Part shown: piece by piece, positions 10,054 to 35,325 of the stretch | Layout of the letters: each line of letters begins with the position of its first letter | Position numbering within the stretch: the first letter of the stretch is position 1 | Source of the DNA: Planctomycetota bacterium | Lineage (GTDB): Bacteria > Planctomycetota > Phycisphaerae > Sedimentisphaerales > Anaerobacaceae | Direction: 5' to 3' | NCBI GenBank assembly: GCA_014384025.1 | Contig: JACNGQ010000134.1 | Location: 1-39,103 of the forward strand | Length of the DNA: 39,103 nucleotides | The notes under the pieces: model-generated | The model's input: the letters and a program-made list of their open reading frames with translations, nothing else | Told to the model about the DNA's origin: nothing | Database searches by the model: none | Made by a program: the position numbers and the translations under genes

Positions 10054-12147
10054 TTATTGAACGTATAAACGGATGTCATCGAAGTGCATAATGCCTGAGC
10101 CGCCGGCGACCGGATTATTTCTGCGGCCGAGACCAAGAGTAATCGAATTGACATTGGCAAGATTCACTCCCTGATCTACAAATGTCTGCAAGTCGATATT
10201 CCATTGGGTCCAAAAGCCTATTTTTGCTGCGTCTGGATTATCATGATTGACCACGGCATTGCCGTTAAGAACAACAAACATCGGTTCGGCAGCATTAGCC
10301 GAATTACCCCTGAACCAGATTGTTAATCTGTCGACACCTTTTTCAGTCCAGTCACGGGGATAAGTCAATGTTAAAGTGGCCTCAGAATTCCCAACGGCGT
10401 TGTTGTAAGCAAATGGCATTGACTGATAGCCACTGTGAACAATAGTCTGCTCGGCAAACGGGAAATTAGGGTAACCAACTACGGATCCATTTGCCGGGTC
10501 GTCGAATCCGTCCACCCAGGCAAGGTATATCCTGTTGCTCCCGGGTTCAGCAGGATCGAGGTCATTGTAGCTCTCGAAATCATCTACAATAAGGAAGTTT
10601 GCCGTTGTAAAGCTCCAAACCGGACCTATCCACGGGCTGTCGGCGTTGGCGTTATTGACCTCATCTACCCGCCAGTAGTAGGTAGTATCCCATTCAAGTT
10701 TTCCGGGGTCATAGCTTTCTGAACCAAGGTCCCTGTCACCTTTATACTCCGGGGAACTGGTATCTGCATCTCGCAGTGCAACTTTATCAGTACCGAAATA
10801 AACCTGATGCGAAGCAGCATGATCCGACGGTGACCAGCTAAGAACGGCTTTTTGCGTTACATCCATAGCTCCGTTAGACGGATTCAGGCTTTCAACGGCA
10901 CCCTGAGTGGTAAAACTCCAGACATTGCCTTTATTCGTATTGACTGTATCAAACTCATCAACTCGCCAATAGTAAGTCTTGCCTGGTTTAAGCAGGTCTG
11001 GTTTATGGGTTGTAGGTCCCTGAGGAAATCCACCGGAGGCATTGTTCACATCGTGAAAGTTTTCTTCAAAATATACCGTGTGCAGTTTCGCACCGAAACC
11101 CGGCGTCCAGGTAAGGATGCTAACGGGACTTATAAACTCGGCACCATCAGCAGGGTCGGGGTTGTAGGCGATTTTGGATGGGATGGTAAGGCTCCAGACA
11201 TCTCCTTTGTGTTTTGTTATACCATCGGCCTGGACTTCGTCAATCCGCCAGTAGTAGGTTGTGCCCGGAACAAGACCGTCCGGAGATGGAGAGTCGGGAA
11301 GGCCGGCGATGAAATACTCTTCGGTTTGGTTGCCCTTAAAAGTTTCTGGGACGCCATCGTTAACATCAGTGAAATTTTCACCGAAATAAACATCGTGCGA
11401 GACAGCAGAATTTCCGGGCAACCAGCCCATACTCACCCATTTATCGAAGTACAGAACACCATCGGCTGGAGTGGGGTCGTATGCTCTTGAACCAGCCATC
11501 AGTTTTTTTATCTCAGTTAACGTCAGTGCCGTATTGTAGATTCGTACATCGTCAATGAGGCCCGGGAAGTAATTGGAGGTACTGAGCCTTGCGCCTATTC
11601 TCACCCGGTCAATTGTCCCTACTTCTCCATCGAGGCTGTCAACAAGCTGGCCATCGAGATACCAGCTACCTCCTGCTCCAGTATATGTTAAAGCAAAATG
11701 GTGCCATTGCGTATCGACAGGAATGAATATAGATCCCCAGCCCCCCACGAAGACAATATAATTGCCTGCATCGTCCACCTCAATATCGTAATAAGTGTAA
11801 TCTGTATCGCCATCCGGGACGAAGCCGAAGACGCTTGTCCAGGGTGGTATGTCTGTGGTACTTGCCTTTGCCCAGCCGGCCATTGTCCTTTGATCAACTC
11901 CGCTTATTCCCACACTGCCGACATCCACGTAATCGCCGTCACCGTCGAGCAGAATCGCACCGCCAATCCTGCCAGCCACCCATTGTGGGTCGCCTTTTAA
12001 GGTGCCGTTGTTACCATTGCCGGATGCATCATTCGCCACGCTGCCGGAAGTTTCATCGAACTGCCAGTGAGCTATGAGGTCGGCGGAGGCGTTAGCGGCC
12101 ATGCTCAGAACCAAAAGAATGAGTAAATAAGTCAATTTCTTAGACAT
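10054..12147 (-). CDS. Secreted LamG-domain protein with three fibronectin-like repeats (LamG protein 1)
   Basis: A 697-residue exported protein. Residues 1-22 are a Sec signal peptide. Residues 23-218 form a LamG/concanavalin A-like domain, from LIAHWQFDETSG to FPGLIDDVRIYNTAL. Three repeats follow at about 220-325, 326-417 and 418-517. Each carries P-x-D/N-G, a VYFG or VYFE strand and YYWRVDE, and ends VWSLT or VWSFTT, which suggests beta-sandwich modules. A C-terminal module at ~518-697 starts LIVDDFESYND and ends FDDIRLY. No sorting signal such as PEP-CTERM or dockerin is visible, and no catalytic site either, so glycan or surface binding is an inference. The ATG at 12147 has AAGGAG 7 nt upstream. 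A promoter, a ~195-nt leader and a terminator are present. Confidence 0.88.
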   Translation of the reverse strand: MSKKLTYLLILLVLSMAANASADLIAHWQFDETSGSVANDASGNGNNGTLKGDPQWVAGRIGGAILLDGDGDYVDVGSVGISGVDQRTMAGWAKASTTDIPPWTSVFGFVPDGDTDYTYYDIEVDDAGNYIVFVGGWGSIFIPVDTQWHHFALTYTGAGGSWYLDGQLVDSLDGEVGTIDRVRIGARLSTSNYFPGLIDDVRIYNTALTLTEIKKLMAGSRAYDPTPADGVLYFDKWVSMGWLPGNSAVSHDVYFGENFTDVNDGVPETFKGNQTEEYFIAGLPDSPSPDGLVPGTTYYWRIDEVQADGITKHKGDVWSLTIPSKIAYNPDPADGAEFISPVSILTWTPGFGAKLHTVYFEENFHDVNNASGGFPQGPTTHKPDLLKPGKTYYWRVDEFDTVNTNKGNVWSFTTQGAVESLNPSNGAMDVTQKAVLSWSPSDHAASHQVYFGTDKVALRDADTSSPEYKGDRDLGSESYDPGKLEWDTTYYWRVDEVNNANADSPWIGPVWSFTTANFLIVDDFESYNDLDPAEPGSNRIYLAWVDGFDDPANGSVVGYPNFPFAEQTIVHSGYQSMPFAYNNAVGNSEATLTLTYPRDWTEKGVDRLTIWFRGNSANAAEPMFVVLNGNAVVNHDNPDAAKIGFWTQWNIDLQTFVDQGVNLANVNSITLGLGRRNNPVAGGSGIMHFDDIRLYVQ

Positions 12148-12247
12148 AATAGAACTCCTTCGAATAAGGCGGATAAGGTGTTAATTGGAATGTAAAAAAA
12201 TGTAGCCACCATGCACAACGATTTCGCTGCAACTTTGTACATTGCAT
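12140..12247 (-). CDS. Possible 35-residue leader ORF overlapping the start of LamG protein 1
   Basis: Within the leader of the LamG gene, GAGGAGGAG lies 5 nt before an ATG that opens a 35-codon frame. The stop (12140-12142) lies just inside the LamG coding sequence, so the two frames overlap by 8 nt. The predicted peptide is rich in aromatic residues: Trp13-Trp14, Phe17-Phe18, Tyr33-Tyr34 and four others. A T7 run (12200-12194) codes Phe17-Phe18. A second ATG, at 12242 in another frame, could use the same Shine-Dalgarno at 10-nt spacing and would give a 36-residue hydrophobic peptide. The site is unusually strong, but coding is unproven; it might instead reflect leader control or chance. Confidence 0.35.
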   Translation of the reverse strand: MQCTKLQRNRCAWWLHFFTFQLTPYPPYSKEFYYV

Positions 12248-12349
12248 AATAACTCCTCCTCAATTTGGAAAAATACTGGAATTGCGTTCGCATGATGATG
12301 AAAAACAACAGATGTGTGCACTGCGCGAACACATCCCTTTCCTGAGTAT

Positions 12350-12379
12350 TTTATACCAAATCAGTCACTATCCAGTCAA
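12350..12379 (-). promoter_or_regulatory. Promoter of LamG protein 1
   Basis: On the minus strand TTGACT (12379-12374) is followed after 18 nt by TATAAA (12355-12350), with TGG just before it acting as an extended -10 element. Transcription would start near 12343, leaving a leader of about 195 nt before the LamG start codon. The leader contains the Shine-Dalgarno-led small ORF. A long-range inverted repeat (GTTCGC with GCGAAC) lies upstream of that ORF. Confidence 0.6.
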
Positions 12380-12423
12380 GGAAAATCCCTCGACTTGCGC
12401 ATAATTCAGTTTTAAGACTCAAG

Positions 12424-12442
12424 CCGGCATAAGCAATGCCGG
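12424..12442. other. Perfect hairpin in the divergent intergenic region
   Basis: CCGGCAT (12424-12430) and ATGCCGG (12436-12442) form a perfect 7-bp stem with a 5-nt loop. It lies between the divergent promoters of the LamG and CotH genes (intergenic 12148-12614). It has no T tract, so it is not a terminator; an operator or repeat remnant is possible. A weaker inverted repeat, TAGTCC (12472-12477) with GGACTA (12497-12502), abuts the CotH -35 element. Confidence 0.4.
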
Positions 12443-12502
12443 GGAAACTGCTGTATCGGACATCATTTGGTTAGTCCTTTAGCTTGGCCTATATAGGGAC
12501 TA

Positions 12503-12531
12503 TTGTAAAATATAGTAAGATATGTTATAAT
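12503..12531 (+). promoter_or_regulatory. Promoter of the CotH/lamin-tail gene
   Basis: TTGTAA (12503-12508) and a consensus TATAAT (12526-12531) are spaced 17 nt apart, with TGT immediately before the -10 as an extended element. Transcription should begin near 12538. AAGGAGG follows at 12597-12603, 11 nt before the ATG. It is one of the best-formed promoters in the window. Confidence 0.65.
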
Positions 12532-12614
12532 ATTTTGTGTTGTTATAAAGCTTATCGGCAGTGGAAAGCGGTGCTTTATAGTTTGCTGGTCTGAACAAGG
12601 AGGATGCTGTTCTT

Positions 12615-15602
12615 ATGAAATATCCGTTGGCTCTTTTTTTTCTCGTTATATTCAATCTTACCATCAACTTTTCAACTATGGTCCGGGCACAGGAGCTAAT
12701 CCGGATAAACGAATTCATGGCCGTGAATAATAATGGGCTTGATGATGAGGATCGGGATGAATCGGACTGGATCGAGCTCTACAATGCCGGAATGAACCCG
12801 GTCAACCTGGATGGGTGGTATCTGACGGATGACGTAAATAACCTAACGCAGTGGGCATTTCCGGAGGTAATAATCGATCCTGATGCATATTTGGTTGTTT
12901 TTGCCTCGGGAAAAAATCGGAGAGATCCTCTGGGAGTATTACACACCAATTTTAGACTAAACGGCAGTGGTGAGTATCTGGGATTAATCCATCCGGACGG
13001 TGAGACTGTGGCCTGGGAGTTCTTTCCGGGGTATCCAAGACAGGCCCCCGATATTTCATACGGTCCAGTCAGCAGTACCATGGAAACAGCGTTCTTAATG
13101 CCTGGGGCCCCGGCCAAGGCCCTGGTGCCCAGTAACGATTCCCTGGAGCCTGCCTCAGAACTTTCGGAGACGCAGCGTCCGTGGACGCAGGAAGGCCCGG
13201 AGGTATTAAGATGGCAAACTGGCACAACCGGTGTCGGTTATGATTATGGTGAACTGGTCGGTTTGGATGTTTCGGGGATGCTCAATGTCAATACCACAGT
13301 GTATATTCGTGTGCCCTTTGTTGTGGATGATCCATCATCGATACAAAGCCTGACCTTACGTATGCGTTTTGACGATGGGATAATAATCTATATTAACGGC
13401 CAAGAGGTGGCACGTAATAATGCTCCAGTACCAGGCGAAGAGACATGGAACTCAGTTGCATTAGTTAGCCGACCCGACAGCATCGCTGTTAATCCGGTTG
13501 ATTTTGCTATTCCGCAATTCGATTTTCTCCATGTTGGGGCCAACCTGCTGGCCGTACAGGGACTGAACCATCGGGTCGGTAGTTCTGACCTGCTGATTAT
13601 TCCCGAGCTGCTGGCCACAATTGATACAGTGGACGGATTGTCACATCAGTATTTCCCGACACCGACACCTGGCAAGCCGAACAACGACGGTGTTGATATT
13701 TTGGGGCCAATAATTTCTGATTCGGACCATTATCCGCTTATACCTACTGAAAATGAGGACCTGCAGATCGTGGCCCGGATCGAGCCGTCCTTCGATCCGA
13801 TTGATGACGTCAAGTTATACTATCGTGTCATGTTTAATCGCGAGGTAAGCGTACCGTTACTGGATGATGGTACCGGCGGCGATAGAGAAGGCGGAGACGG
13901 GCTCTATACTGTGCGAATTCCGTCTTACAGGTTTAAAACAGGTGAGATGGTCCGCTGGTTCATTGCGGCCACAGACACTGCCGGGCGCAGATCACGTTTC
14001 CCGGCCTATATAGATGAGCTAAATTCTCCTCAGTATTTCGGGACAATAGTGGAGAATCCGAACCTGACTAATCCGCTACCGGTACTACATTGGTTTATCC
14101 GAACACCGAACGCCGCGAACTCCGATGCAGGAACTCGTTGTTCGCTCTTCTATGATGGAGAGTTCTACGACAATGTTGGGATCAATATTCACGGCCAATC
14201 CAGCCGCGGATTTCCGAAAAAGAGCTACGATATTGATTTTCATCCCGGGTTTAACTTCAAGTGGGCGCCGGGCCAGCCACGCGCCGATGATATAAACCTG
14301 ATGACGACCTATCCGGATAAGGCGCAGATGCGTAATATTCTGTCCTATGAAATATATCGGGATGCGGGTTGTCCCTACCACTGGGTTTTTCCTGTACGAG
14401 TCCAACAAAACGGGGCCTTTTGGGGCACAGCTCATGTGATGGAAAACGGTGATGAAGATTGGCTGATTCGGATGGGCTTGAATGCAGAGGGGGCCCTTTA
14501 CAAGATGTACAACACATTTACCAGTTCGAGCAACGCCAATAGTGGCGCCGAGAAGAAGACACGCAAATATGAAGACAACGCGGATTTGTTGGCTCTCTAC
14601 AATGGTGTTAGCCTCTCGGGCGAAGCACGTCGCCGATATCTTTATGACAATATGGATGTCGCGCAGGTTGTGAATTTTCTGGCGGCACGTGCACTTACGG
14701 GAGATACCGACTGTTGTCACAAAAACTACTACTTTTACCGTGATACGGGTATCAGTAATGAATGGCAGATGTGGCCATGGGACGTGGATTTGAGCTTTGG
14801 ACGAGTATGGAATTCTTCGGAAACTTACTGGAACGAAAATCTTGTTCCAAATACGCATCTGTTTGTCGGAAACAATAACCGTGTACCACAAGCCTTCTTT
14901 AACACACCGGAAATACGGCAAATGTATTTACGCCGGATACGAACACTCATGGATGATTTTCTCAAGGCCCCGGACACGCCTGAGGATGAACAATATTTTG
15001 AGCCGCTTATTGATATGTGGGCGTCTCTTATTGCCCCGGATGCGGCCTTAGATGCTGCTAAATGGAACTCGCACGCCTGGGGTAATGGTTCGACGTCTTC
15101 TTGTTGTCCCCAATCTTTACAAGAAGCCGTCGATGAACTGAAGTATTCCTACCTGCCTGAGCGCCGGCGCCAACTATTCAACGGTTTGTCTTCCGGTTCT
15201 AATGAAATACCAGATGCCCAATTGGCCGGTACGGTTATTGACTTCGGTACGATTGATACTAATCCTGCCAGTGGTAACCTTGACGAGCAGTATATACAAC
15301 TACGTAATCCCAATTATTTTGCTGTAGATATTTCCGGCTGGACATTGAGTATTGGGCCAGATCAAGGTAAACATCTGTTTACTTTCAATGGCGGAACGGT
15401 CATCCCTTCAAATGGAACTCTTCACGTTGCCGCCGACCGTGTAGCTTTGCGCTCTCGAAATGCGTCTATCAGAGGCGGTCCAATATTGTTCATTGTTGGT
15501 GATTTCAGTGGCCGACTTGCAGATCGAGATGAAATCCTTCTTTTGACCGACCGGCAGCAAGAGGTAGTAAATTTTGTTATAACACAAGCCGGCAGGCGGT
15601 AA
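12615..15602 (+). CDS. Exported CotH-kinase protein with two lamin-tail domains
   Basis: A 995-residue secreted protein. After a signal peptide (cleavage near VRAQE, residue ~26) comes a lamin-tail domain, with INEFMAVNNNG, DWIELYN and LDGWYLTDD. A beta-rich region follows at ~190-345 (MRFDDGIIIYINGQEV, NLLAVQGLN). Next is an Ig-like segment with DDGTGGDREGGDGLYTVRIP. The CotH kinase domain covers ~490-830, with NIHGQSSRGFPKKSYDIDF (~525-540) and WQMWPWDVDLSFG (~715-728). A second lamin-tail domain at ~890-995 includes DEQYIQLRNPN and VDISGWTLS. CotH proteins are atypical kinases that phosphorylate secreted proteins (spore coat proteins in Bacillus). The conserved Lys and Asp segments suggest an intact fold, but substrates here are unknown. 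It has its own promoter and a full Shine-Dalgarno. Confidence 0.88.
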   Translation: MKYPLALFFLVIFNLTINFSTMVRAQELIRINEFMAVNNNGLDDEDRDESDWIELYNAGMNPVNLDGWYLTDDVNNLTQWAFPEVIIDPDAYLVVFASGKNRRDPLGVLHTNFRLNGSGEYLGLIHPDGETVAWEFFPGYPRQAPDISYGPVSSTMETAFLMPGAPAKALVPSNDSLEPASELSETQRPWTQEGPEVLRWQTGTTGVGYDYGELVGLDVSGMLNVNTTVYIRVPFVVDDPSSIQSLTLRMRFDDGIIIYINGQEVARNNAPVPGEETWNSVALVSRPDSIAVNPVDFAIPQFDFLHVGANLLAVQGLNHRVGSSDLLIIPELLATIDTVDGLSHQYFPTPTPGKPNNDGVDILGPIISDSDHYPLIPTENEDLQIVARIEPSFDPIDDVKLYYRVMFNREVSVPLLDDGTGGDREGGDGLYTVRIPSYRFKTGEMVRWFIAATDTAGRRSRFPAYIDELNSPQYFGTIVENPNLTNPLPVLHWFIRTPNAANSDAGTRCSLFYDGEFYDNVGINIHGQSSRGFPKKSYDIDFHPGFNFKWAPGQPRADDINLMTTYPDKAQMRNILSYEIYRDAGCPYHWVFPVRVQQNGAFWGTAHVMENGDEDWLIRMGLNAEGALYKMYNTFTSSSNANSGAEKKTRKYEDNADLLALYNGVSLSGEARRRYLYDNMDVAQVVNFLAARALTGDTDCCHKNYYFYRDTGISNEWQMWPWDVDLSFGRVWNSSETYWNENLVPNTHLFVGNNNRVPQAFFNTPEIRQMYLRRIRTLMDDFLKAPDTPEDEQYFEPLIDMWASLIAPDAALDAAKWNSHAWGNGSTSSCCPQSLQEAVDELKYSYLPERRRQLFNGLSSGSNEIPDAQLAGTVIDFGTIDTNPASGNLDEQYIQLRNPNYFAVDISGWTLSIGPDQGKHLFTFNGGTVIPSNGTLHVAADRVALRSRNASIRGGPILFIVGDFSGRLADRDEILLLTDRQQEVVNFVITQAGRR

Positions 15603-15751
15603 CTGCGAAGGAGAAATACATCTGCGCAGGTTACGTATTATGCGGGCTGTATAAAAAGAACGATAGCCAACATACAATCAGTAGGAACCTGAAAATATCT
15701 CAACATTATTTAAATATTCACAACCGACAAATATTAAGTAATCGCCCACTT

Positions 15752-17290
15752 TCAAACTGGTGCGCCGGTATCGTCTTGATATTTTTTGCGCAGTAGTTTA
15801 AGTTCGGCCTTCAATTCTGTAATAAGGCTTGAATTTGCTGGTTCGTTATAGATATTTTTCATTTCCTTCGGATCTTTTTTCAGGTCGTACAGCTCCCACT
15901 CGTCGATGTCGTTGTAGAAGTGTATCAGCTTGTAGCGTTTGGTGCGAATACCGTAATGTCGTTTTACACTGTGCACTGCGGGGTATTCGTAGTAGTGGTA
16001 GTACATCGATTTTCGCCAGTCTCCGGGGGTTTTGCCCTGAAGGATTTTGCGAATCGAGCGCCCCTGCATATCCGGGGGCGTTTGAACACCGGCGAAATCC
16101 AAAAACGTTGGTCCGAAATCCAGGTTCAAGACGATATCATTTTTGATAGAGCCGGGTTTTACTTCCTTAGGATAGCGGACAAGCAGCGGCATACGCAGTG
16201 ATTCCTCGTACATAAATCTCTTGTCAAACCAGCCGTGGTCGCCCAAGTAAAAGCCCTGGTCGGAGGTGTAAAAAACCACAGTATTCTTTGCCAGACCTGT
16301 TTGGTCCAGGTAATCCAATACCCGTCCGACATTCTCGTCAACCGAGGCGATACATCGCAGGTAATCTTTGATATACCTTTGATATTTCCAGCGAACCAGG
16401 TCTTTGCCCGTTAGATTTGCATTACGGAAAGTTTCGTTTTTAGGTTCGTATGTAGCATCCCAAAGCTCCTTTTGTTCGGCTGTAAGGTTCCTCGGGGGGA
16501 CGAGTTTAAGGTCTCTATCGGTCATCGTCTTTTCGATGCTCATATCCTGTTCCCTGGCGGCCCTCCCTCGGTTGGAGTAATCATCGAACAAGTTTTCCGG
16601 CTCAGGAATTTTAACATCATCGTACATTGTCAGATATTTGGGACCAGGCTCCCAGGATCTGTGCGGGGCCTTATGTTGGTACATCAGGCAGAATGGTTTT
16701 TCGCCGGTGCGTTCTTTGAGCCATTTGAGTGCATGGCCTGTCAGAATATCAGTAGTGTAGCCTGTATATTTTCTCTGCTGTCCCATCTCTTTCATAGCGG
16801 GATTATAATACGTTCCCTGTCCGGGCAGGACGTTCCAGTAATCAAAACCGGTCGGGTCTGTTTTGAGGTGCCATTTACCTATCATAGCGGTTTCGTAACC
16901 GACATTTTGGAGCAGTTTTGGGAAGGTCTGCTGGCTACCGTCAAACTTTTGTCTGTTATCAATGACGCCGTTGATATGGCTGTATTTGCCGGTCAGTATT
17001 ACAGCGCGGCAGGGGGCGCAGATTGAATTAGTGCAAAAGCTGTTGTTAAAGAGCATGCCTTCCCTGGCGAGACGGTCGAGGTTTGGTGTTTTATTGATTT
17101 TACTTCCATAACAGCTCATTGCATGTGAGGCGTGGTCATCCGTCATTATAAATATTATGTTTGGTCTTTTTGTAGAAATCCCTGCTGTTTTGCCAATGCT
17201 TTCGCAGCCTGGAAGTATCGATAGCGCTGAAGCTGAACCCGCCATAAAGCCGAGTGTTTTGAGAAATTCTCTCCTTGTTTGTCTTTTCAT
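15752..17290 (-). CDS. Tat-exported sulfatase with CAPCR active-site motif
   Basis: A 512-residue type I (formylglycine) sulfatase. The N-terminus carries a twin-arginine signal ([10 protein letters not shown]) ending in a lipobox-like LPGC, so export in folded form and perhaps lipid anchoring are likely. The metal ligands begin with MTDDHASH (Asp51, Asp52). The residue to be converted to formylglycine is Cys91 in [11 protein letters not shown], where the fourth motif position is Cys rather than the usual Ser. Further ligands lie in [16 protein letters not shown]. The [10 protein letters not shown] and [11 protein letters not shown] blocks resemble glycosaminoglycan-type exo-sulfatases, but the substrate is not assignable. 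The start has AAGGAA upstream. It follows the next sulfatase gene by only 30 nt, so the two are probably one operon. No maturase gene is in the window. Confidence 0.92.
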
Positions 17291-17320
17291 TTTGGTTCCT
17301 TTTATAAATATTTGTAATTG

Positions 17321-18727
17321 TTATTTATAATCTTTTCCCGCAAGACTGTCCTGGCATGATTTGCGCCACTTAATCAGCATTGTTTTCATTGATTTCAGAA
17401 TTTGCGGTTTTTTGGCAGCTAAATCTTTTGTCTCGCCCGGGTCTTCGGTCAGGTCAAAGAGCATAAAGGTCTTGCCCTTATCACTGCTGTATATTTTGTA
17501 CTGGTTGTCCGTTAGTGAAAGCTGGTTGGCGGATTCAAATCCTATTGGCATCGGGCGCCTTTTCATTTTACCGTTAATTAACGGCAGAAGGCTTATGCCG
17601 TCAACAGGCTCAGGCCGGCCTTTTATCTCAAATCCGAGTATGTCCATAACTGTCGGGAAATAGTCGGAGGTTGAGCAGGGAATATCGGTTACCTGTCCGG
17701 CTTTGATGCGGGCGGGCCACTCAAGCAGACCCGGTACGCGAACGCCGCCTTCGAGCAAACTGCGCTTTCGTCCGCGGAAAGGCCCGGCTGAGCCACGAGT
17801 TCGGCCTTGTTTGTCGTTTTTTCCTTCAGGGCCGTTATCACTGCAAAACCAAAACATAGTGTTATCAGCTATTCCAAGCTCTCTCAATTGAGTGCGAAGC
17901 CGTCCAATTTGGCCATCCAGAGCAGTAATACATCCATAGTAGTGCTGCTCATCTTCGGTGTATTGTGAATATATCTTTCTGTATTGTGGGCCTGTCAAAA
18001 CAGGTAAGTGGGGTGCATGAAACCATATAACTGCGAAGAAAGGCTCGCTTTTGTCTGCGGCATTTTGGATAAATGGAACAACACGGTCCATAATGACCCT
18101 GGAGTCATCACCCTGGAGATTCTCGGTTACTTTTGTACTGTCTTGTATCCAATAGTAAGTTCCATAAGGCTTGTTCGTATCGGGATTTTCCATAGGATTC
18201 CACGTGGGTACTTTTGCCTCTGTAGAGAAGCATACGTCGAACCCATTCTTCCATGGTGGTGAGTAGTGCTTGGCACCTTTTGGGCCGCCGCGGTTGGAAT
18301 CCTTTTCTTTTGTAGTAAGTGTTCCAAGGTGCCATTTGCCGAAATGGCCTGTTGTGTATCCTTGTGTTTTCAAAGCTTCCGCTAAAGTAATTTCCTCTTT
18401 GGGCATATGGCCAGTGTTTGCGAAAAAGATTCCATATCGATACGGATGCCGGCCTGTAAGGCAGCTTCCACGAGTAGGCGAACATACCGGTGCGCCAGAA
18501 TAAAAACGCGTAAACCGCATTCCGGCTTTGGCCATTGCATCCAGATTGACGGTTTTGATAATCTTATTGCCGTTGAATCCCGGATCACCCCAGCCCATGT
18601 CATCCGCCATGCACAGGATGATGTTCGGTTTCTCTGTCTCGGTGGTTTTTGAAAAGAGAGCCTTCGGCAAGCTTAAAACTAAAGCACCTGATGCGACAGA
18701 ACGGATGAAGTCTCTTCTGTTAACCAT
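17321..18727 (-). CDS. Tat-exported arylsulfatase-type sulfatase with CSPTR motif
   Basis: A 468-residue sulfatase hydrolysing sulfate esters in the periplasm. The twin-arginine signal NRRDFIRSVASGALVLSL opens the protein. ADDMGWGDPG holds metal ligands Asp42 and Asp43. Cys82 in CSPTRGSCLTGRHPYRYG is the canonical formylglycine site. SDNGPEGK and LEGGVRVPGLLEWP are typical of the arylsulfatase A-like group. A C-terminal subdomain ends with the common DLTEDPGETKDLA. The ATG at 18727 has GAGG about 9-10 nt upstream. It is the first gene of a probable two-sulfatase operon, divergent from the APC transporter gene. Substrate unknown; a sulfated polysaccharide is the likely source given the neighbours. 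Confidence 0.93.
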   Translation of the reverse strand: MVNRRDFIRSVASGALVLSLPKALFSKTTETEKPNIILCMADDMGWGDPGFNGNKIIKTVNLDAMAKAGMRFTRFYSGAPVCSPTRGSCLTGRHPYRYGIFFANTGHMPKEEITLAEALKTQGYTTGHFGKWHLGTLTTKEKDSNRGGPKGAKHYSPPWKNGFDVCFSTEAKVPTWNPMENPDTNKPYGTYYWIQDSTKVTENLQGDDSRVIMDRVVPFIQNAADKSEPFFAVIWFHAPHLPVLTGPQYRKIYSQYTEDEQHYYGCITALDGQIGRLRTQLRELGIADNTMFWFCSDNGPEGKNDKQGRTRGSAGPFRGRKRSLLEGGVRVPGLLEWPARIKAGQVTDIPCSTSDYFPTVMDILGFEIKGRPEPVDGISLLPLINGKMKRRPMPIGFESANQLSLTDNQYKIYSSDKGKTFMLFDLTEDPGETKDLAAKKPQILKSMKTMLIKWRKSCQDSLAGKDYK

Positions 18728-18966: not shown

Positions 18967-20841
18967 GTGATTAAGCTCAGTAAACAGCTTGGTGCTCTTG
19001 ACGTATTTGCAGTAGCGGCCGGGGCAATGATAAGCTCAGGTTTGTTTGTTCTGCCGGCTTTAGCATTTCAAAAGTCAGGACCTGCTGTTATCTTATCCTA
19101 TCTTTTCGCATCGTTCCTGATAATTCCCAGTGTCCTCAGCAAAGCTGAACTTTCCACGGCAATGCCGAGAGCGGGAGGGACATATTTTTTTGTTGAGCGG
19201 AGTTTAGGTCCGATCTGGGGGGTGTTCAGCGGCCTGGCAAGCTGGTTTTCGTTGGCCCTGAAGAGCGCTTTTGCTGTTGTCGGAATGGCTGTTCTCATTG
19301 AGATTGTAGTGCATATGGTCTTATCCATACAGCTTGAACCGTGGCATCTAAAGGTAATAGTGGCCTTTTGCTGTATTGGATTTACAGTGCTTAATATTGT
19401 AAGCGTCAAACTGACAAGCAGATTTCAGGTTTTGCTTGTTGGGATACTACTGGCGATACTGGCCTTTTTTGTTCTTTTTGGCAGCGGGTCTGTTGAAGCT
19501 GTTCGATTCAAGGGATTTATGGGAAAAGGCTGGTCGGCAGTGTTTGCAACTGCGGGTCTGGTTTTTATTAGTTTTGGGGGTTTGACTAAAGTTGCCAGCA
19601 TTGCTGAAGAGGTAAAACACCCCGGTAGGAACCTTCCTTTCGGAATGGTCATGGCTTGGTTTGTCGTAACCGTGTTTTATATCAGTGTAATCATAATTAC
19701 GGTTGGTGTTGTGGATGGTAAGGAACTGGCTGTTAACTATGCGCCTATATCCCTGGCGGCCAGTAAATTTATGGGTTTGCCCGGTTTTGTAATCCTGGCT
19801 CTCGCCGCTGTCGCGGCTTTTGTTACCACAGCAAATGGGGGCATACTCGCAGCATCCCGGTCACCTATGGCCATGAGCAGGGACCAATTGCTTCCGCCGC
19901 TTTTGTCTCGCGTAAGCAGCAGATTCAAGACACCTCATATCAGCATATTGCTCACGGGCGGATTTATGATTACTGCGATTGTTTTTCTCGAACTCGAAGT
20001 ATTGGTGAAAACCGCCTCAACCTTAATGTTAATACTTTTCATTTTAGATAATGCCAGCGTAATTATAATGCGCGAGAGCAGAATACAGAGCTATCGGCCG
20101 AGGTTCAAGTCACCGTTATATCCCTATGTTCATATTGCCGCCATTGTTGCTTACAGCGCTTTAATAATTGATATGGGCACTGTGCCGTTGATGATTACAG
20201 CTTGCTTTATAGGTTTGAGCGCTGCCTGGTACTGGCTTTATGTTTGCAGACGGGTCAGCAGGGCCTCGGCGGTTATGCACATTGTAGAGCGAGTTACCGA
20301 CAGAGAGCTTAAAACCGTTACGCTCGAGGACGAGCTTCGGGATATTCTGCTCGAAAGAGACAATATAATCGAGGACAGGTTCGATGAGCTTATAAGAGGA
20401 TGTGAAGTCCTGGATATTCAGGGCGAAGAAAAAGCTGAAAAAATCTTCCGGCAGGTCTCGGCCATTTTGGCCAAGAGGTTGGGGACAAATGAGTACGTAC
20501 TGTTCGAGAAGTTCCTCCATCGTGAAGCAGAGGGCGGGACAGTAGTTCAGCCGGGCTTTGCCATACCACATATAGTCGTGGAGGGTAAAAACAAATTCGA
20601 TATTCTGCTTGTTCGTGCGCGTGAGGGCATCATCTTTCCTCATGCTCCGGACCCTGTCAGGATAATGTTTGTTCTGGCAGGCAGTAAAGACGAGCGTAAT
20701 TATCACCTCAGAGCCTTGATGGCCATAGCTCAGATTGCACAGGAAAAGCATTTCGAGCAGCGATGGTTTGCCGCCAGAGATACTCAGGGATTAATGAATT
20801 TGATTCTTCTATCCACACGAAAAAGAGACACGAAACCATAA
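18967..20841 (+). CDS. APC-family amino-acid transporter fused to a PTS EIIA type-2-like domain
   Basis: A 624-residue fusion. Residues ~1-430 are an amino acid-polyamine-organocation transporter with about 12 membrane helices. The substrate-site break in helix 1 is AGAMISSGLFVLPA (residues 18-31), and other family blocks are PRAGGTYFFVERSLGP and IAEEVKHPGRNLP. A helical linker (~440-505) leads to a cytoplasmic domain (~510-620) resembling EIIA of the PtsN/fructose type. In it GFAIPH places His535 at the position of the phosphorylated histidine, and DPVRIMFVLAGSK and HLRALMAIAQI follow. The EIIA part could let phosphorelay state or nitrogen status gate uptake, but this is inference; no PTS enzyme I or HPr gene is in the window. 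Translation starts at GTG 18967 with AGGG about 11 nt upstream. It has its own promoter. Confidence 0.9.
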   Translation: MIKLSKQLGALDVFAVAAGAMISSGLFVLPALAFQKSGPAVILSYLFASFLIIPSVLSKAELSTAMPRAGGTYFFVERSLGPIWGVFSGLASWFSLALKSAFAVVGMAVLIEIVVHMVLSIQLEPWHLKVIVAFCCIGFTVLNIVSVKLTSRFQVLLVGILLAILAFFVLFGSGSVEAVRFKGFMGKGWSAVFATAGLVFISFGGLTKVASIAEEVKHPGRNLPFGMVMAWFVVTVFYISVIIITVGVVDGKELAVNYAPISLAASKFMGLPGFVILALAAVAAFVTTANGGILAASRSPMAMSRDQLLPPLLSRVSSRFKTPHISILLTGGFMITAIVFLELEVLVKTASTLMLILFILDNASVIIMRESRIQSYRPRFKSPLYPYVHIAAIVAYSALIIDMGTVPLMITACFIGLSAAWYWLYVCRRVSRASAVMHIVERVTDRELKTVTLEDELRDILLERDNIIEDRFDELIRGCEVLDIQGEEKAEKIFRQVSAILAKRLGTNEYVLFEKFLHREAEGGTVVQPGFAIPHIVVEGKNKFDILLVRAREGIIFPHAPDPVRIMFVLAGSKDERNYHLRALMAIAQIAQEKHFEQRWFAARDTQGLMNLILLSTRKRDTKP

Positions 20842-20897: not shown

Positions 20898-23567
20898 TTA
20901 TGGTGCCGGACGATACAACCGAAAGTCGTCAAAATATACCAGACCTGAACCACCGACTACCGGATTGTTTCTGTTTCCGAAGCCAAGAGTAATCTTATTT
21001 ACTTTAGTAAGATTCACGCCGAATTCCTGCAAATCAATATTCCATTGGGTCCAGTTATCTATCTGTGCAGCATTAGGATTATCATGATTGACTACGGCAG
21101 TGCCATTTAGAGCTATGTACATAGGCTCTGCAGCATTAGAGGAGTCACCTCGGAACCACAGCGATAATACTCCAACGCTTTCTTCAGTCCAGTCACGGGG
21201 GTAAGTTAGTATTAAAGTCGCCTCGGATATGCCAACGGAGTTGTTATAGGAAAAAGGCATTGACTGAAAACCACCATGAACGATAGTTTGCTCAGCAAAA
21301 GGAGATACCGCATAGCCAACGATAGATCCGTTTATTGTTGGATTGTCAAATCCATCCACCCATGCATTAAATATCCTGTTACTATCGGGTTCATCGGGAT
21401 TAAGGTCATTGTAGGACTCAAAATCGTCCACGATGAGATAATCAGCTACTGAAAAGCCCCAAATCGCACCTTTTGTGATAGAGTTATCAGTATTATATTC
21501 GTCAATTCTCCAGTAGTAGGGACCGCTACCCCATTCAAGGACTTCAGGATGATCGTAGCTTGTAAGGTTCTGCCGGCCTTTATAAACACCGGTCATATCG
21601 GTTGTATCTGCATTAGTTACGGTTTCTTTATCTGTGCCGAAGTACACATCATGTTGCGAAGCATTTTCTCCCGGTGACCAGCTCAGGGATGTTGCTTCTG
21701 TAATGGATGGTGTCGAGCCGTTAGCCGGATTAGGGATTGCAGCAAGTAATGGATTACCCCGCATTATCTTCATAATCTCATTTTTTATCAACGCTGTGTT
21801 GTAAAGACGAACATCGTCCATGACGCCATCGAAATTGTTCGAGCCGGTGTTAAAAGGCTCGCAACCAAGGTAAAAAGTTCCTGGTGAGGCACCGAGTTCT
21901 TCTGTTGTTACCAATTGTCTATCCATGTTTCCATTTACGTATGTCTTTATATTACCATCCTCTTGAGAATAGACACCGGCCACATGATACCAAGTATCCT
22001 CGATGAGTTCTGTGCCGCCGTTAACATTTCTGTTGAGAGTGGCTGAGTTGCCGGATGAGCGAATTTCAAATTCGACTTTGTTGTTACTGAATATGCCCAT
22101 CTTAAAACCACCGTTGGAACCATTCTGGTTGCCGCCAATTTTTTGATCAATATTCAGATTAGCAATTTTGACCCAGGCTGTTAATGATACTTCGCCTGAA
22201 ATCCTCAGGCTGGGATTGTCGCCGCAATCGAGACAGTCTCCAAAGCCATCGAATTCCAAGGCATTTCCGTCATAGCCTGTTACCCACTGTGGATTTCCAA
22301 CAAAGTGTCCATGATTACCGTAGCCGGAATTATCGAGCGTAATGGTTCCATAACCCTCATCGAACTTCCAAAAGCCGACAAGGCTGAGATTATCCAAGGG
22401 CATATCCGGAGGTGTTTTGAAGCTCCAGATGCCGCCTTTATGTGTTGTTAAGGCATCAAGCTCATCGACCCGCCAAAAGTATGTTTTGTCCGGCTCAAGG
22501 GTATCGAGAGAATAGATAGTATCTGACTGGGGGATTCCGCCTGTGGCATTATTTACATCGTCAAAATTATCACCTAAATAAACGATGTGTAATTTCGCAT
22601 CAACACCCGGCATCCAGCTTAGATCCAAATCCATGTCGGTAAATTCGGCGCCATCAGCGGGGGTGGGTCCATAAGCGATTTTTGAAGGAATAATGAAGCT
22701 CCAGACGGGACCTTTGTGTATCATAGTGCCGTCGGCTTCAACCTGGTCTATACGCCAGTAATATGTCTGTTCCGGTATAAGGCCCTCCGGTAAAAAATAT
22801 CCTGGAAAGCCGACGACAAAAGATGAGTGGGCCTTGTTGCCCTGGAACGTGCCTTTGGTACCAAGATTAACATCCTCAAAATTATCGCCGAAGTACACAT
22901 CATGTGAAGCTGTCGTATCTCCCGAAGTCCAGACAAGGTTTGCCCATGAAAATGGATGATATGCACCGTCAGATGGCTTGGGATTGTAGGCGATTGGTGT
23001 CATCCCTAATAGTTCAACTTCGGATATCTGCATGCTATTGACAGAACCACCTACCGGGCCGCGTATGGCAGTGAATAAAAGTTGATAGTGGTCGTATGGC
23101 TGGTCATTATCAAACCTAATCTCAGTTTCGTTTATTGTGTGACGCGGCCATTCCACCGCCTGACTGAAATCTGATATATCGCCACTGGCAATCAGCGTAT
23201 AAGGTCCATCTATACTGAAATTAGAGCCATAGAGTTCAAATGCAACCGGATCTCGGCCCGGTACATCATTAGCCGTAGTTAAAGTCAATCCAGTAACAAT
23301 ATTCTGGTTAGTTGATGGTGTAACTCGGAATCCAGCGCCACCGGTCCCGGGATCGGGCTCAAAATCTCCTTTGAAATGCAGATACTTTGTCGAGGTGTTA
23401 TCATCAATCGCCAGGGGAGGCGCTTCGTTACCAGGCCAATCTGAATCGTTAGGAACGCCAAAGATTATATCCCCCGGTTTGGTGATATCAACCGGGGCGG
23501 CAATTGTAATTGTACTAAATAACAAAATTGAGACGACAATAACTATAATTAATAATTTGGAATACAT
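20898..23567 (-). CDS. Secreted LamG-domain protein with discoidin-like N-terminus (LamG protein 2)
   Basis: An 889-residue exported protein and partial paralogue of the protein coded at 10054-12147. A signal peptide (to about residue 23) precedes an F5/8 type C-like beta-sandwich (~24-190, with IDDNTSTKYLHFKGD, VAFELYGSN and ISEVELLGM). Two fibronectin-like repeats follow (each with DVYFGDNF or IVYLGDNF, YYWRID or YFWRVDE, and VWSF or IWSF). Then come a LamG domain (LVGFWKFDEGYG to FDGVMDDVRLYNTAL), a third repeat, and the C-terminal module LIVDDFESYND to FDDFRLY. That module is almost the same as in LamG protein 1. No anchor or enzyme motif is seen. The F5/8-like plus LamG combination suggests carbohydrate or surface binding. 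The Shine-Dalgarno is weak. It is convergent with the APC-EIIA gene. Confidence 0.87.
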   Translation of the reverse strand: MYSKLLIIVIVVSILLFSTITIAAPVDITKPGDIIFGVPNDSDWPGNEAPPLAIDDNTSTKYLHFKGDFEPDPGTGGAGFRVTPSTNQNIVTGLTLTTANDVPGRDPVAFELYGSNFSIDGPYTLIASGDISDFSQAVEWPRHTINETEIRFDNDQPYDHYQLLFTAIRGPVGGSVNSMQISEVELLGMTPIAYNPKPSDGAYHPFSWANLVWTSGDTTASHDVYFGDNFEDVNLGTKGTFQGNKAHSSFVVGFPGYFLPEGLIPEQTYYWRIDQVEADGTMIHKGPVWSFIIPSKIAYGPTPADGAEFTDMDLDLSWMPGVDAKLHIVYLGDNFDDVNNATGGIPQSDTIYSLDTLEPDKTYFWRVDELDALTTHKGGIWSFKTPPDMPLDNLSLVGFWKFDEGYGTITLDNSGYGNHGHFVGNPQWVTGYDGNALEFDGFGDCLDCGDNPSLRISGEVSLTAWVKIANLNIDQKIGGNQNGSNGGFKMGIFSNNKVEFEIRSSGNSATLNRNVNGGTELIEDTWYHVAGVYSQEDGNIKTYVNGNMDRQLVTTEELGASPGTFYLGCEPFNTGSNNFDGVMDDVRLYNTALIKNEIMKIMRGNPLLAAIPNPANGSTPSITEATSLSWSPGENASQHDVYFGTDKETVTNADTTDMTGVYKGRQNLTSYDHPEVLEWGSGPYYWRIDEYNTDNSITKGAIWGFSVADYLIVDDFESYNDLNPDEPDSNRIFNAWVDGFDNPTINGSIVGYAVSPFAEQTIVHGGFQSMPFSYNNSVGISEATLILTYPRDWTEESVGVLSLWFRGDSSNAAEPMYIALNGTAVVNHDNPNAAQIDNWTQWNIDLQEFGVNLTKVNKITLGFGNRNNPVVGGSGLVYFDDFRLYRPAP

Positions 23568-23906: not shown

Positions 23907-25058
23907 ATGAAGATAATTGCAGATGCAAATATTCCGTTTGTGGCAGAGTGCTTTTCTTCTATCGGTGAGGTTATAACTGTTGGCGGTCGAGAGATAACAC
24001 GGGATATTATTGCTGATGTCGATGTTCTTTTGGTTCGCAGTATTACGCAGGTTAATGCGGATTTGCTGGCCGGCAGCAATGTGCGTTTTGCAGCTACAGC
24101 CACTATCGGTTTTGACCATGTCGATATTGACTTTCTGCGGCGGAACCATATCGGTTTTACGTCGGCGCCCGGATCGAATGCCAACTCGGCGGCGGAATAT
24201 GTTATTGCCGGACTGCTTGAAGCATGTCATAAATGTGATATTAATCTCGAAGATCAATCGATAGGCATTATAGGTGTTGGCAATGTCGGAAGCAGGGTGG
24301 CGAAAAAGTGTTCGGCTTTAGGGATGAGGGTTTATCTGAACGACCCACCGTTACGGAGACAAACTGGCGAGGTGAAATATCTGCCGTTAAAAGAGCTGTA
24401 TGATTGCGATTTTATAACTTTCCATACGCCATTGACATTCGAGGGTATTGATAAGACGTATCATTTGGCTGACGAGGGATTTTTCAAATCTCTTAAGAAA
24501 GGGTGTGTATTTGTTAATGCTTCTCGCGGCGGAGTGGTTGACAGTGAGGCATTGAAAACGGTGATACAGTCTGGGCGAATGAAAACTGTGGTGCTTGATG
24601 TTTGGGAAAACGAGCCGAATATCGATATGGAACTTTTGGAAATGGTTGATATCGGCACGCCGCATATTGCCGGCTATTCGCTGGACGGCAAGATTTCCGG
24701 TATGATTATGATTTATAAGGCGGTTTGTGAACATTTTGGACTTAGTCCCAAGTATGGTATAGAAGATTTTTTACCTGAACCTGTTATCAGTCAATTGAGA
24801 AGAGAACCGAGTACAGGTAATGAACAGAGGGCGTTACTTGATGCTGTGCGGAAGATTTACGATATCAGAGAAGATGATAACCGTCTCCGCCAGATTGCTG
24901 AGAAGCCTGAAGACAAAAGGGGGGAATATTTTGATGGGCTGCGGAAGAAGTATCACGTCCGCAGAGAATTTCAAAATACGAAGGTTTTTGTTGAAGACAG
25001 AAACAGTGCTTTAGCTAAAAAGTTGGAAGGAATCGGTTTCACAATGAGTGAAAAGTAA
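23907..25058 (+). CDS. pdxB: Erythronate-4-phosphate dehydrogenase
   Basis: PdxB oxidises 4-phospho-erythronate in the DXP-dependent route to pyridoxal phosphate. The 383-residue D-2-hydroxyacid dehydrogenase opens with MKIIADANIPFV and has VRSITQVNADLL and the TATIGFDHVD block that marks PdxB. The nucleotide loop is GVGNVG (123-128), and DPP follows the second strand. Catalytic residues are Arg207 (NASRGG), Glu236 (VWENEP) and His253 (IGTPHIAGYSLDGK). The IAGYSLDGK segment distinguishes it from SerA, and a C-terminal dimerisation region is present. Its ATG has GAGG about 12 nt upstream. The gene is 11 nt from folP, which suggests a cofactor-synthesis operon. Confidence 0.92.
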   Translation: MKIIADANIPFVAECFSSIGEVITVGGREITRDIIADVDVLLVRSITQVNADLLAGSNVRFAATATIGFDHVDIDFLRRNHIGFTSAPGSNANSAAEYVIAGLLEACHKCDINLEDQSIGIIGVGNVGSRVAKKCSALGMRVYLNDPPLRRQTGEVKYLPLKELYDCDFITFHTPLTFEGIDKTYHLADEGFFKSLKKGCVFVNASRGGVVDSEALKTVIQSGRMKTVVLDVWENEPNIDMELLEMVDIGTPHIAGYSLDGKISGMIMIYKAVCEHFGLSPKYGIEDFLPEPVISQLRREPSTGNEQRALLDAVRKIYDIREDDNRLRQIAEKPEDKRGEYFDGLRKKYHVRREFQNTKVFVEDRNSALAKKLEGIGFTMSEK

Positions 25059-33735: not shown

Positions 33736-35325
33736 CTAAGCAGGACGATAAGGGTTATTTTGAGGATTATACCATGCAAAGAGCCGGTCGTGCAATTGAT
33801 TTTGTACCTTTTTTAGAGCAGGATCGTTAATGCGATTTACGAATTCACCAGGGTCGGTTTCGTGGTCGTACAATTCATGTGTTGAGCCGTGATTGAAAAT
33901 GTACTTATAACGCCGAGTGCGAATCATATATTCACAGGTTCTGGTCCTTAAATTATATTCACTGAACGCCGCCGAAGGCCCATTCATATCAGGTTTGCGC
34001 AGAATATCGGCAAAACTGGCTGCATCCATCTTTTCAGGTGCGCCGGGTATGTCATGTATCGTTGTCTTTTCTGGTGGTTTTACGCTTGTCAACTCGACTA
34101 ATGTTGGGTATAGGCCGAAGTATTCAGTTAATGCTGCGGTTACTTTGTTTTGCGGTAGATTGTTCGGATAACTTACAATCAACGGCACTTTAACAGACGG
34201 CTCGAACAGACAAAACTTCTGGTATAACCCGTGGTCACCATCCATCTCGCCGTGGTCGGAAGTATATATAACTATGGTATTATTCAGAAGACCTTCTTTT
34301 ACTAGCGCCCTGTACACGTATCCTACACATGTATCAACAAAAGCGAGGTTGCCGAGGTAACCTGCTCGATGCGCCCGCTGGCGTTTTTGGCCCTGCGCTT
34401 GTGTATTTTTAATGCGCCGCTGGATGTGTGGTGGATATTTGGATATATCACCAACTTCCGGTAGTTTCATCTTATCGACGGGATATTTTTCGGCCCATTG
34501 TCTCGGAGGATAAAAAGGGGAATGCGGTTTCATAAAACTGGTTAGCAGAAAGAATGGCTGTCGGCGATATCTGGTTATAAATTTGGCCGCCTCGCGAGCT
34601 ATAAACATATCCAGATGGTCTTCGGCTTCAAGTTTTGAGGCCATGCTGTCAAAGTTGTATTTTTCGACATTGCCAACCCAGGGGCTACCCTTTGGCCACA
34701 ATCCGTCTAAATCAGGCAGGCCGGCTCCACTATCATCCACTGTTTTGAAAAAGTGCTGTCCCAGCGGATGATTGGCAATCTCATTGGCATAGTGCTGTAC
34801 TTTCGGGCCCAAATACATCAGCCAGTCGTTGATGGACATATAATATTCGAAGCCGTGATTGTGGGCATTTGCAAAGTGCATCTTGCCTATCAAGGCGGTT
34901 AGATAACCGTTTTCAGCAAAATGATGAGCCATAGTGCGGTAGCGCCAGTCAAGCTGGTTGGTATTGGTTATTGCGCCGGTGCTGTGTGCATAGAGCCCAG
35001 TCAGCAAAGCCATTCTTGAAGCGACACAGACAGGATAAGGACAATAAGCATTTGTAAACCGGATGCCACGTGAGGCAATCAGATCGATATTTGGTGTGGG
35101 AACCAGGTCTCTGCCTGCACAAGTCATCAGGTCTGCTCTATGCTGGTCGGTCATAATGAAAAGAATGTTAGGCTTGATAAGGTTTGAAGGTGAATAAGAA
35201 GCCGGAAGCTCTTTCGGAGAGTCAGATGTTTTAGTTTCTGCAACGTTACAGCCGAGTAACGCCGAAGCGGCTCCAAGTCCGGCGGCTCGCAGGAATTCCC
35301 TTCTCCTGAGTTTGTTTTTTTTCAT
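33736..35325 (-). CDS. Tat-exported sulfatase with CVASR motif
   Basis: A 529-residue type I sulfatase. The twin-arginine signal RRREFLRAAGLG runs into a lipobox-like SALLGC, so a lipoprotein is likely. FIMTDQHRADL supplies metal ligand Asp60. The formylglycine site is Cys100 in CVASRMALLTG, with Ala instead of the usual Pro at position three. The C-x-A-x-R form is known to be accepted by anaerobic radical-SAM maturases (anSME). TSDHGEMDGDHGLYQK resembles the choline-sulfatase/heparan-type groups, and FEPSVKVPLIVSYP continues the site. It follows the next sulfatase gene by 71 nt and precedes lpd by 52 nt. Substrate unknown. The start codon has no strong Shine-Dalgarno. Confidence 0.92.
   Translation of the reverse strand: MKKNKLRRREFLRAAGLGAASALLGCNVAETKTSDSPKELPASYSPSNLIKPNILFIMTDQHRADLMTCAGRDLVPTPNIDLIASRGIRFTNAYCPYPVCVASRMALLTGLYAHSTGAITNTNQLDWRYRTMAHHFAENGYLTALIGKMHFANAHNHGFEYYMSINDWLMYLGPKVQHYANEIANHPLGQHFFKTVDDSGAGLPDLDGLWPKGSPWVGNVEKYNFDSMASKLEAEDHLDMFIAREAAKFITRYRRQPFFLLTSFMKPHSPFYPPRQWAEKYPVDKMKLPEVGDISKYPPHIQRRIKNTQAQGQKRQRAHRAGYLGNLAFVDTCVGYVYRALVKEGLLNNTIVIYTSDHGEMDGDHGLYQKFCLFEPSVKVPLIVSYPNNLPQNKVTAALTEYFGLYPTLVELTSVKPPEKTTIHDIPGAPEKMDAASFADILRKPDMNGPSAAFSEYNLRTRTCEYMIRTRRYKYIFNHGSTHELYDHETDPGEFVNRINDPALKKVQNQLHDRLFAWYNPQNNPYRPA

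Follow-up and report, generated by a model that had tools for sequence, protein, structure and literature searches.

The gene at positions 18967–20841 (+) of the window, the 39,103-nucleotide stretch of a Planctomycetota contig analysed here, encodes an APC permease joined through a linker to a PTS EIIA domain of type 2. We consider it probable that this EIIANtr-like domain is a regulatory switch acting in cis on an amino acid transporter and set by phosphorylation of His535. The histidine is kept in the bacterial relatives examined and lost in a group of archaea in which the relay is mostly missing, a pattern across sequences that suggests a relay-set switch.

Domain composition and predicted structure of the fusion

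The open reading frame, which begins with GTG and includes its stop codon, codes for 624 amino acids. Pfam placed AA_permease_2 at residues 8–399 (9.1e-46, 157.1 bits vs. a cut-off of 27) and PTS_EIIA_2 (PF00359) at residues 489–613 (2.3e-21, 76.7 bits vs. a cut-off of 27). The reading frame and these two matches bear out the earlier note, which had described an APC permease fused to a cytoplasmic EIIA domain resembling type 2. The APC transporter domain, of LeuT fold, spans residues 8–429 (18988–20253, +), as delimited by the Pfam match and by a fold match to 6f34. It is followed by a conserved, helix-containing linker at residues 430–477 (20254–20397, +), marked in the alignment and the AF2 model by E456-L457, R464-D465, and F472. 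The EIIANtr-like PTS_EIIA_2 domain occupies residues 478–614 (20398–20808, +), as supported by Pfam, by its closest solved relative in sequence, and by the AF2 model. That relative was E. coli EIIANtr (1a6j). In the phmmer alignment, the GFAIPH motif, whose histidine is residue 535, aligned with GIAIPH of E. coli EIIANtr, and YHLRAL, which contains His580, aligned with THLHTL. Based on conservation across rows, His535 (codon CAT, 20569–20571, +) is the predicted phospho-acceptor and His580 (codon CAC, 20704–20706, +) a second conserved histidine. The further claim that His535 is retained within GFAIPH likewise held, given its alignment with the EIIANtr histidine and its conservation in bacterial rows.

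No EIIB or EIIC domain was present among the Pfam matches of the fusion protein. The fused EIIA missed the PtsN equivalog cut-offs (44.8 vs. 138.7 bits for TIGR01419; 38.6 vs. 221 bits for NF008145), and none of the NCBIfam APC models exceeded its curated cut-off among the best 25 of 30 matches, the top one being TIGR00909 (2A0306) with 200.1 vs. 556.8 bits. Because the NCBIfam matches listed were below their cut-offs, neither substrate nor PtsN orthology can be read from the model names.

The AF2 model, built with 16 aligned homologues (mean pLDDT 86.5, pTM 0.83), showed a helical transporter, short linker helices (residues 435–444, 452–464, and 471–477), and an alpha/beta EIIA domain; it is in this predicted model only that TMD, linker, and EIIA are seen joined. 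The permease part best matched 6f34 (Foldseek 3.1e-22; VIA Z 44.4, rmsd 2.2 over 424 residues, 24% identity), which we take, together with 5oqt, to be GkApcT. The Foldseek and VIA match lists were taken up by the TMD; for the EIIA part, comparison with solved structures was at the sequence level. Lys99, which the model places in TM3, was invariant in 16/16 rows. In the best explanation, the permease is a secondary amino acid transporter of the CAT/GkApcT-like APC type, an assignment that we regard as reasonably likely.

The host PTS and the spread of the fusion

On contig C94 of the host genome (G000; 6.69 Mb, 448 contigs, completeness 95.44), the genes for EIIA, HPr, and EI adjoin one another, and contig C128 carries a gene for GAF-EI. 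HPr contains GLHMRPA, EI contains GRTSHAAIVAR, and GAF-EI contains TSHLSILAR, which are presumably the respective active sites. A single HPr match was found, along with six EIIA domains: that of the window fusion and five others, namely a second APC-EIIA protein on C117 that is cut by the contig end, one EIIA on C94, a stand-alone EIIA on C392, and one each on C149 and C72. On C149, genes for EIIA and a universal stress protein (Usp) follow genes of V/A-type ATPase A-, B-, and D-type on the same strand (L079:136-4223), the A-type reading frame being short (347 aa); PTS control of an ion pump is a possible meaning of this arrangement. On C72, the gene for a 269-aa EIIA protein adjoins a Na+/H+ exchanger gene on the same strand (L078:3148-5329). 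N- and C-terminal parts of more APC-EIIA copies lie at contig ends of this genome (L077:5958-6398 and L076:6264-7640 (−), respectively) and may be one split gene.

The EIIC search, which covered the PTS_EIIC family, gave no match in the host genome. The family matched in 6 of 119 phylum genomes (113 without), five of them over the cut-off, and none of the six was among the 17 genomes with the fusion. With EI, GAF-EI, HPr, and EIIAs present but PTS_EIIC without a match, the host PTS looks regulatory, with its outputs at membrane transport. An earlier survey describes Planctomycetes with EI and without PTS transporters, and screened Archaea without a PTS except for Haloarcula marismortui (PMC2405797). 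The earlier note had called for a search of the host for phosphoryl donors and had named their absence, together with non-conservation of His535, as the finding that would speak against its proposal. EI, GAF-EI, HPr, and further EIIA domains were all found; since the genome has phosphoryl donors and the EIIANtr-like domain keeps its conserved histidine, this objection falls away.

Within the phylum, the APC-EIIA arrangement occurred in 17/119 genomes at E ≤ 1e-20, in some cases with extra sequence after EIIA. Residues 535 and 580 were both histidine in 27/27 rows of the phylum alignment, from which L077 and L026 were left out. Of the 17 genomes, 16 had EI and 15 had HPr; G041 (83% complete) was without either and G093 was without HPr. 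TrkA_C followed EIIA in the two longer fusions scanned, L017 and L019. A further group (L024, L025, and L027–L029) consists of APC permeases in which a long middle region precedes an EIIA that keeps both histidines; among the three scanned, L025 and L028 matched Usp there over the cut-off but none of their individual stretches passed, and L024 had no match. The linker-EIIA module was also found on a ClC channel (L030:27-2024) and on an MnhG-type subunit (L082:605-1516, −), and a CPA-type antiporter (L036:1495-3459, −), truncated where the fetched sequence stops, carries TrkA_N and two EIIA stretches. These three are among the 27 phylum rows with both histidines. Searched alone at E ≤ 1e-20, the linker-EIIA module was present in 17/119 genomes, with matches that include rows of its own model; this set differs from the 17 APC-EIIA genomes.

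The fusion is widespread across many phyla, with at least 80 loci. The best 80 loci of a public genome scan came from Planctomycetota, Cloacimonadota, Omnitrophota, Spirochaetota, Neomarinimicrobiota, and others, plus four Thermoplasmata archaea. All of their matches run from the permease into EIIA, which, together with the recurrence in 17 genomes of the phylum, indicates that the fusion is not a product of chance. In this second set, which had 81 rows including the window protein, 76 rows had H at residue 535 and one was masked there; the remaining four, with S at 535 and Y at 580, were exactly the four archaea. Three bacterial proteins (L137, L151, and L163) have Tyr580 and keep His535; the L137 and L163 genomes gave HPr matches weaker than most (1.8e-14 and 1.2e-17), and the L151 genome gave a strong one.

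Donors were searched in 50 of the 80 genomes. EI was detected in 42/50 and HPr in 43/50, and all four archaea were without both. With the masked row set aside, 43/45 genomes with His535 had EI or HPr and 40/45 had both, as against 0/4 genomes (all archaeal) without His535; the Fisher value for this tie, 7e-5, ignores that the archaeal loss is one event. His535 was kept with neither EI nor HPr detected in G119 and G123, as in G041, and with one of the two missing in G122, G131, and G155, as in G093. Some of these genomes may be incomplete.

A hint at the substrate from an operon was sought and not found: both genes flanking the fusion lie on the opposite strand. Among families common to at least five loci within 3 kb of the 80 named loci, mainly Cloacimonadota and Neomarinimicrobiota-type loci, none hinted by eye at a substrate. 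A promoter and terminator scan performed no better than shuffles, and Rfam gave no match over the gathering score within the window. Elsewhere in the window, a PdxB-like 4-phosphoerythronate dehydrogenase with DUF3410 (23907–25058; 432.4 bits vs. a cut-off of 434) is encoded upstream of genes for dihydropteroate synthase and a NUDIX protein. Three sulfatases, two LamG proteins, and one CotH protein are encoded near the transporter (10054–18727, 20898–23567, and 33736–35325), perhaps a polysaccharide-degrading neighbourhood; no tie between the transporter and these genes was seen.

Loss of the histidines and continued constraint in Thermoplasmatota

The archaeal search covered 194 genomes of Thermoplasmatota, drawn from a larger group, with fusion matches taken at 1e-30. 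His535 and His580 were absent in all 29 fetched archaeal loci that reach EIIA; the thirtieth is an N-terminal piece. EI exceeded its cut-off in 2/194 genomes and HPr in 2/194, these being the same two genomes, and the fusion had no match at 1e-30 in either. One fusion carrier of the archaeal set (G280) had an HPr match that was below the cut-off and had a stop inside. For the copy in G292, misbinning is unlikely given its location at position 1,586,797 of a single contig.

The merged alignment comprised 89 rows from bacteria and 32 from archaea, the archaeal ones including three duplicates (L142, L158, and L166). Left out of it were L127, L133, L119, L195, L196, and the phylum loci L020, L023–L029, L030, L036, L082, and L006; of these, L195 is also without both histidines and L196 is an N-terminal piece. 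His535 was present in 89/89 bacterial and 0/29 distinct archaeal rows, and His580 in 86/89 and 0/29, respectively. Bacterial rows also conserved P534 (89/89), T525 (88/89), and A532 (88/89), positions that are changed or loosened in archaea.

In a TMD-only tree of 118 rows (a quick tree with a midpoint root, in which 38/115 inner branches had support below 80), the 29 archaeal rows formed one clade (SH-aLRT 92) nested among bacteria. This clade is joined by the bacterial L116 (support 95), whose genome has EI and HPr and whose protein keeps His535. The simplest history is a single transfer from bacteria to archaea, after which the active site was lost once. Because the archaeal rows form one clade, the histidine loss is treated as one event, and p-values that count sequences therefore overstate the tie between donors and histidine. 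The earlier note had proposed that the domain senses the phosphorelay; that Thermoplasmatota carriers are without both His535 and PTS donors supports that part of its proposal, with the weight of one evolutionary event.

The domain left behind is not degenerating. Relative to the TMD, EIIA does change a little more quickly in archaea (divergence ratio 1.42; 32 rows, three of them duplicates) than in bacteria (1.14). Rough dN/dS estimates, several with dS values above 1, were 0.06–0.16 for EIIA and 0.06–0.20 for the TMD in seven overlapping archaeal pairs; for bacterial EIIA they were 0.06–0.12 in five of six pairs and 0.34 in the sixth, where dS was 0.04. Certain positions of the linker and the C-terminal part are invariant in the archaea as well, and M585 and W586 are fixed there. 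An AF2 model of an archaeal protein (mean pLDDT 79.5, pTM 0.66) kept the strands and helices of EIIA, with an uncertain linker. Judged from these comparisons, the archaeal EIIA is under purifying selection rather than decaying, and it is the active-site region that relaxed. Since EIIA is constrained without its histidine, the domain appears to have a phosphate-independent job, and the fused EIIA may not be only a phosphate sensor. Taken with its other transporter partners, the linker-EIIA unit could be a mobile module that brings several kinds of bacterial membrane transporter (amino acid permease, ClC channel, and Na+/H+ antiporter parts) under the direct control of a purely regulatory PTS, one copy of which Thermoplasmatota acquired, stripped of its phosphosite, and kept as a phosphate-independent control element. 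We offer this broader picture tentatively, as finely balanced but leaning slightly to the doubtful side.

Proposed mechanism, alternatives, and related systems

In our best reading, the EIIANtr-type module would tune transport through phosphorylation by HPr~P and would also have a phosphate-independent role. When PEP and EI inputs favour it, phosphate would pass from PEP through EI (or GAF-EI) and HPr to His535, this phosphorylation being itself a predicted step. Once phosphorylated, EIIA is expected to pack differently on the cytoplasmic side of the permease, with the conserved linker mediating the contact, and the changed packing would set transport activity. Since the archaeal form, without the histidine or detected donors, is still selected, absence of the phosphate probably does not just turn the transporter "off", and the unphosphorylated state can probably transport; we lean modestly toward unphosphorylated as the permissive state. 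Given the host GAF-EI, a nitrogen signal, as the earlier note proposed, is possible. Nitrogen shortage phosphorylates the relay in E. coli, through EINtr; if it did so here, a permissive unphosphorylated state would run counter to the simplest form of nitrogen-driven uptake.

Other roles for the domain were weighed against this switch. EIIA might be mainly structural or ligand-sensing, serving oligomerisation, folding, or the binding of another cytosolic signal, with His535 phosphorylation minor or a by-product of ancestry. In favour of such a role, EIIA persists in Thermoplasmatota without His535 and His580, with purifying selection acting on it much as on the TMD and with M585 and W586 fixed. 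It fits poorly, however, with the bacterial conservation of P534 and His535 (89/89), T525 and A532 (88/89), and His580 (86/89), and with the change or loosening of these positions in the archaea, whose phylum mostly lacks the relay, and we regard it as unlikely. The fused EIIA could instead act outward, as a membrane-anchored reporter of substrate transport to the PTS or as a phosphate sink that competes for HPr~P; the transporter would then regulate the relay (a transceptor). With six host EIIAs, one HPr match, and no PTS_EIIC match, EIIA outputs could compete for one HPr, and the histidines are intact. Outward action alone leaves unexplained both the module on a ClC channel, an MnhG-type subunit, and a CPA antiporter and the constraint in genomes without a detected relay; it seems to us more improbable still.

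EIIA domains of the sugar PTS pass phosphate to EIIB, and by this established precedent the fused domain might hand phosphate to the transported molecule or the permease, as in group translocation. The protein has no EIIB or EIIC among its Pfam matches, the genome has no PTS_EIIC match, and the APC fold is one of secondary transporters. Group translocation by a sugar PTS permease was therefore rejected as nearly excluded.

The proposed relay-set switch in cis is of interest because regulator and transporter form a single chain, which makes cause and target one molecule, and because forms that have the phosphorylation site and forms that lack it occur in one family; together these make the effect of histidine phosphorylation on a LeuT-fold transporter directly testable. 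The setting is a group of genomes whose PTS has no evident role in sugar transport. In Proteobacteria, PTSNtr is known to control transporters through EIIANtr proteins that are not fused to them, and a review reportedly covers PTS domain fusions. A search of open-licence literature, mostly judged by listing, found no description of the APC-EIIA fusion. The domain combination itself is findable by any profile search; what is new here is that missing donors go together with a missing histidine, that the form without the histidine is constrained, and that other transporters carry the shared module.

Several known systems share parts of this design. GkApcT (6f34, 5oqt) and CAT-type APC transporters have the transporter fold in common with the window protein, whereas the solved chains cover only the permease part of the fusion, and the TM5 Lys of 6f34, which we take to be the coupling residue, aligned with Leu161 of the window protein. 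KimA (8b70 and 8b71, c-di-AMP bound) is a further LeuT-type fold match (8b71, Z 38.0). The cytoplasmic domain of KimA binds c-di-AMP, so both systems would be controlled by a cytosolic signal, a second messenger in KimA vs. a predicted phosphohistidine here; the likeness is one of fold and type of control. Within Planctomycetota, the APC-Usp-like-EIIA and APC-EIIA-TrkA_C proteins resemble the window protein in having a C-terminal EIIA with both histidines but differ in a Usp-like region ahead of EIIA or TrkA_C behind it, respectively, and in their lower identity to it. A precedent in trans comes from E. coli, where PtsN that carries no phosphate attaches to YcgO, a K+/H+ antiporter, at its C-terminal region and inhibits it, an interaction that phosphorylation of PtsN weakens (PMC11808508). 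In that system, an EIIA of type 2 from the PTSNtr relay has its binding to a transporter's cytoplasmic C-terminal region set by its phosphorylation state. PtsN is a separate protein acting on a CPA1 antiporter, whereas the window EIIA is covalently part of an APC amino acid permease; by this analogy, the fusion would be the PtsN–YcgO logic in cis.
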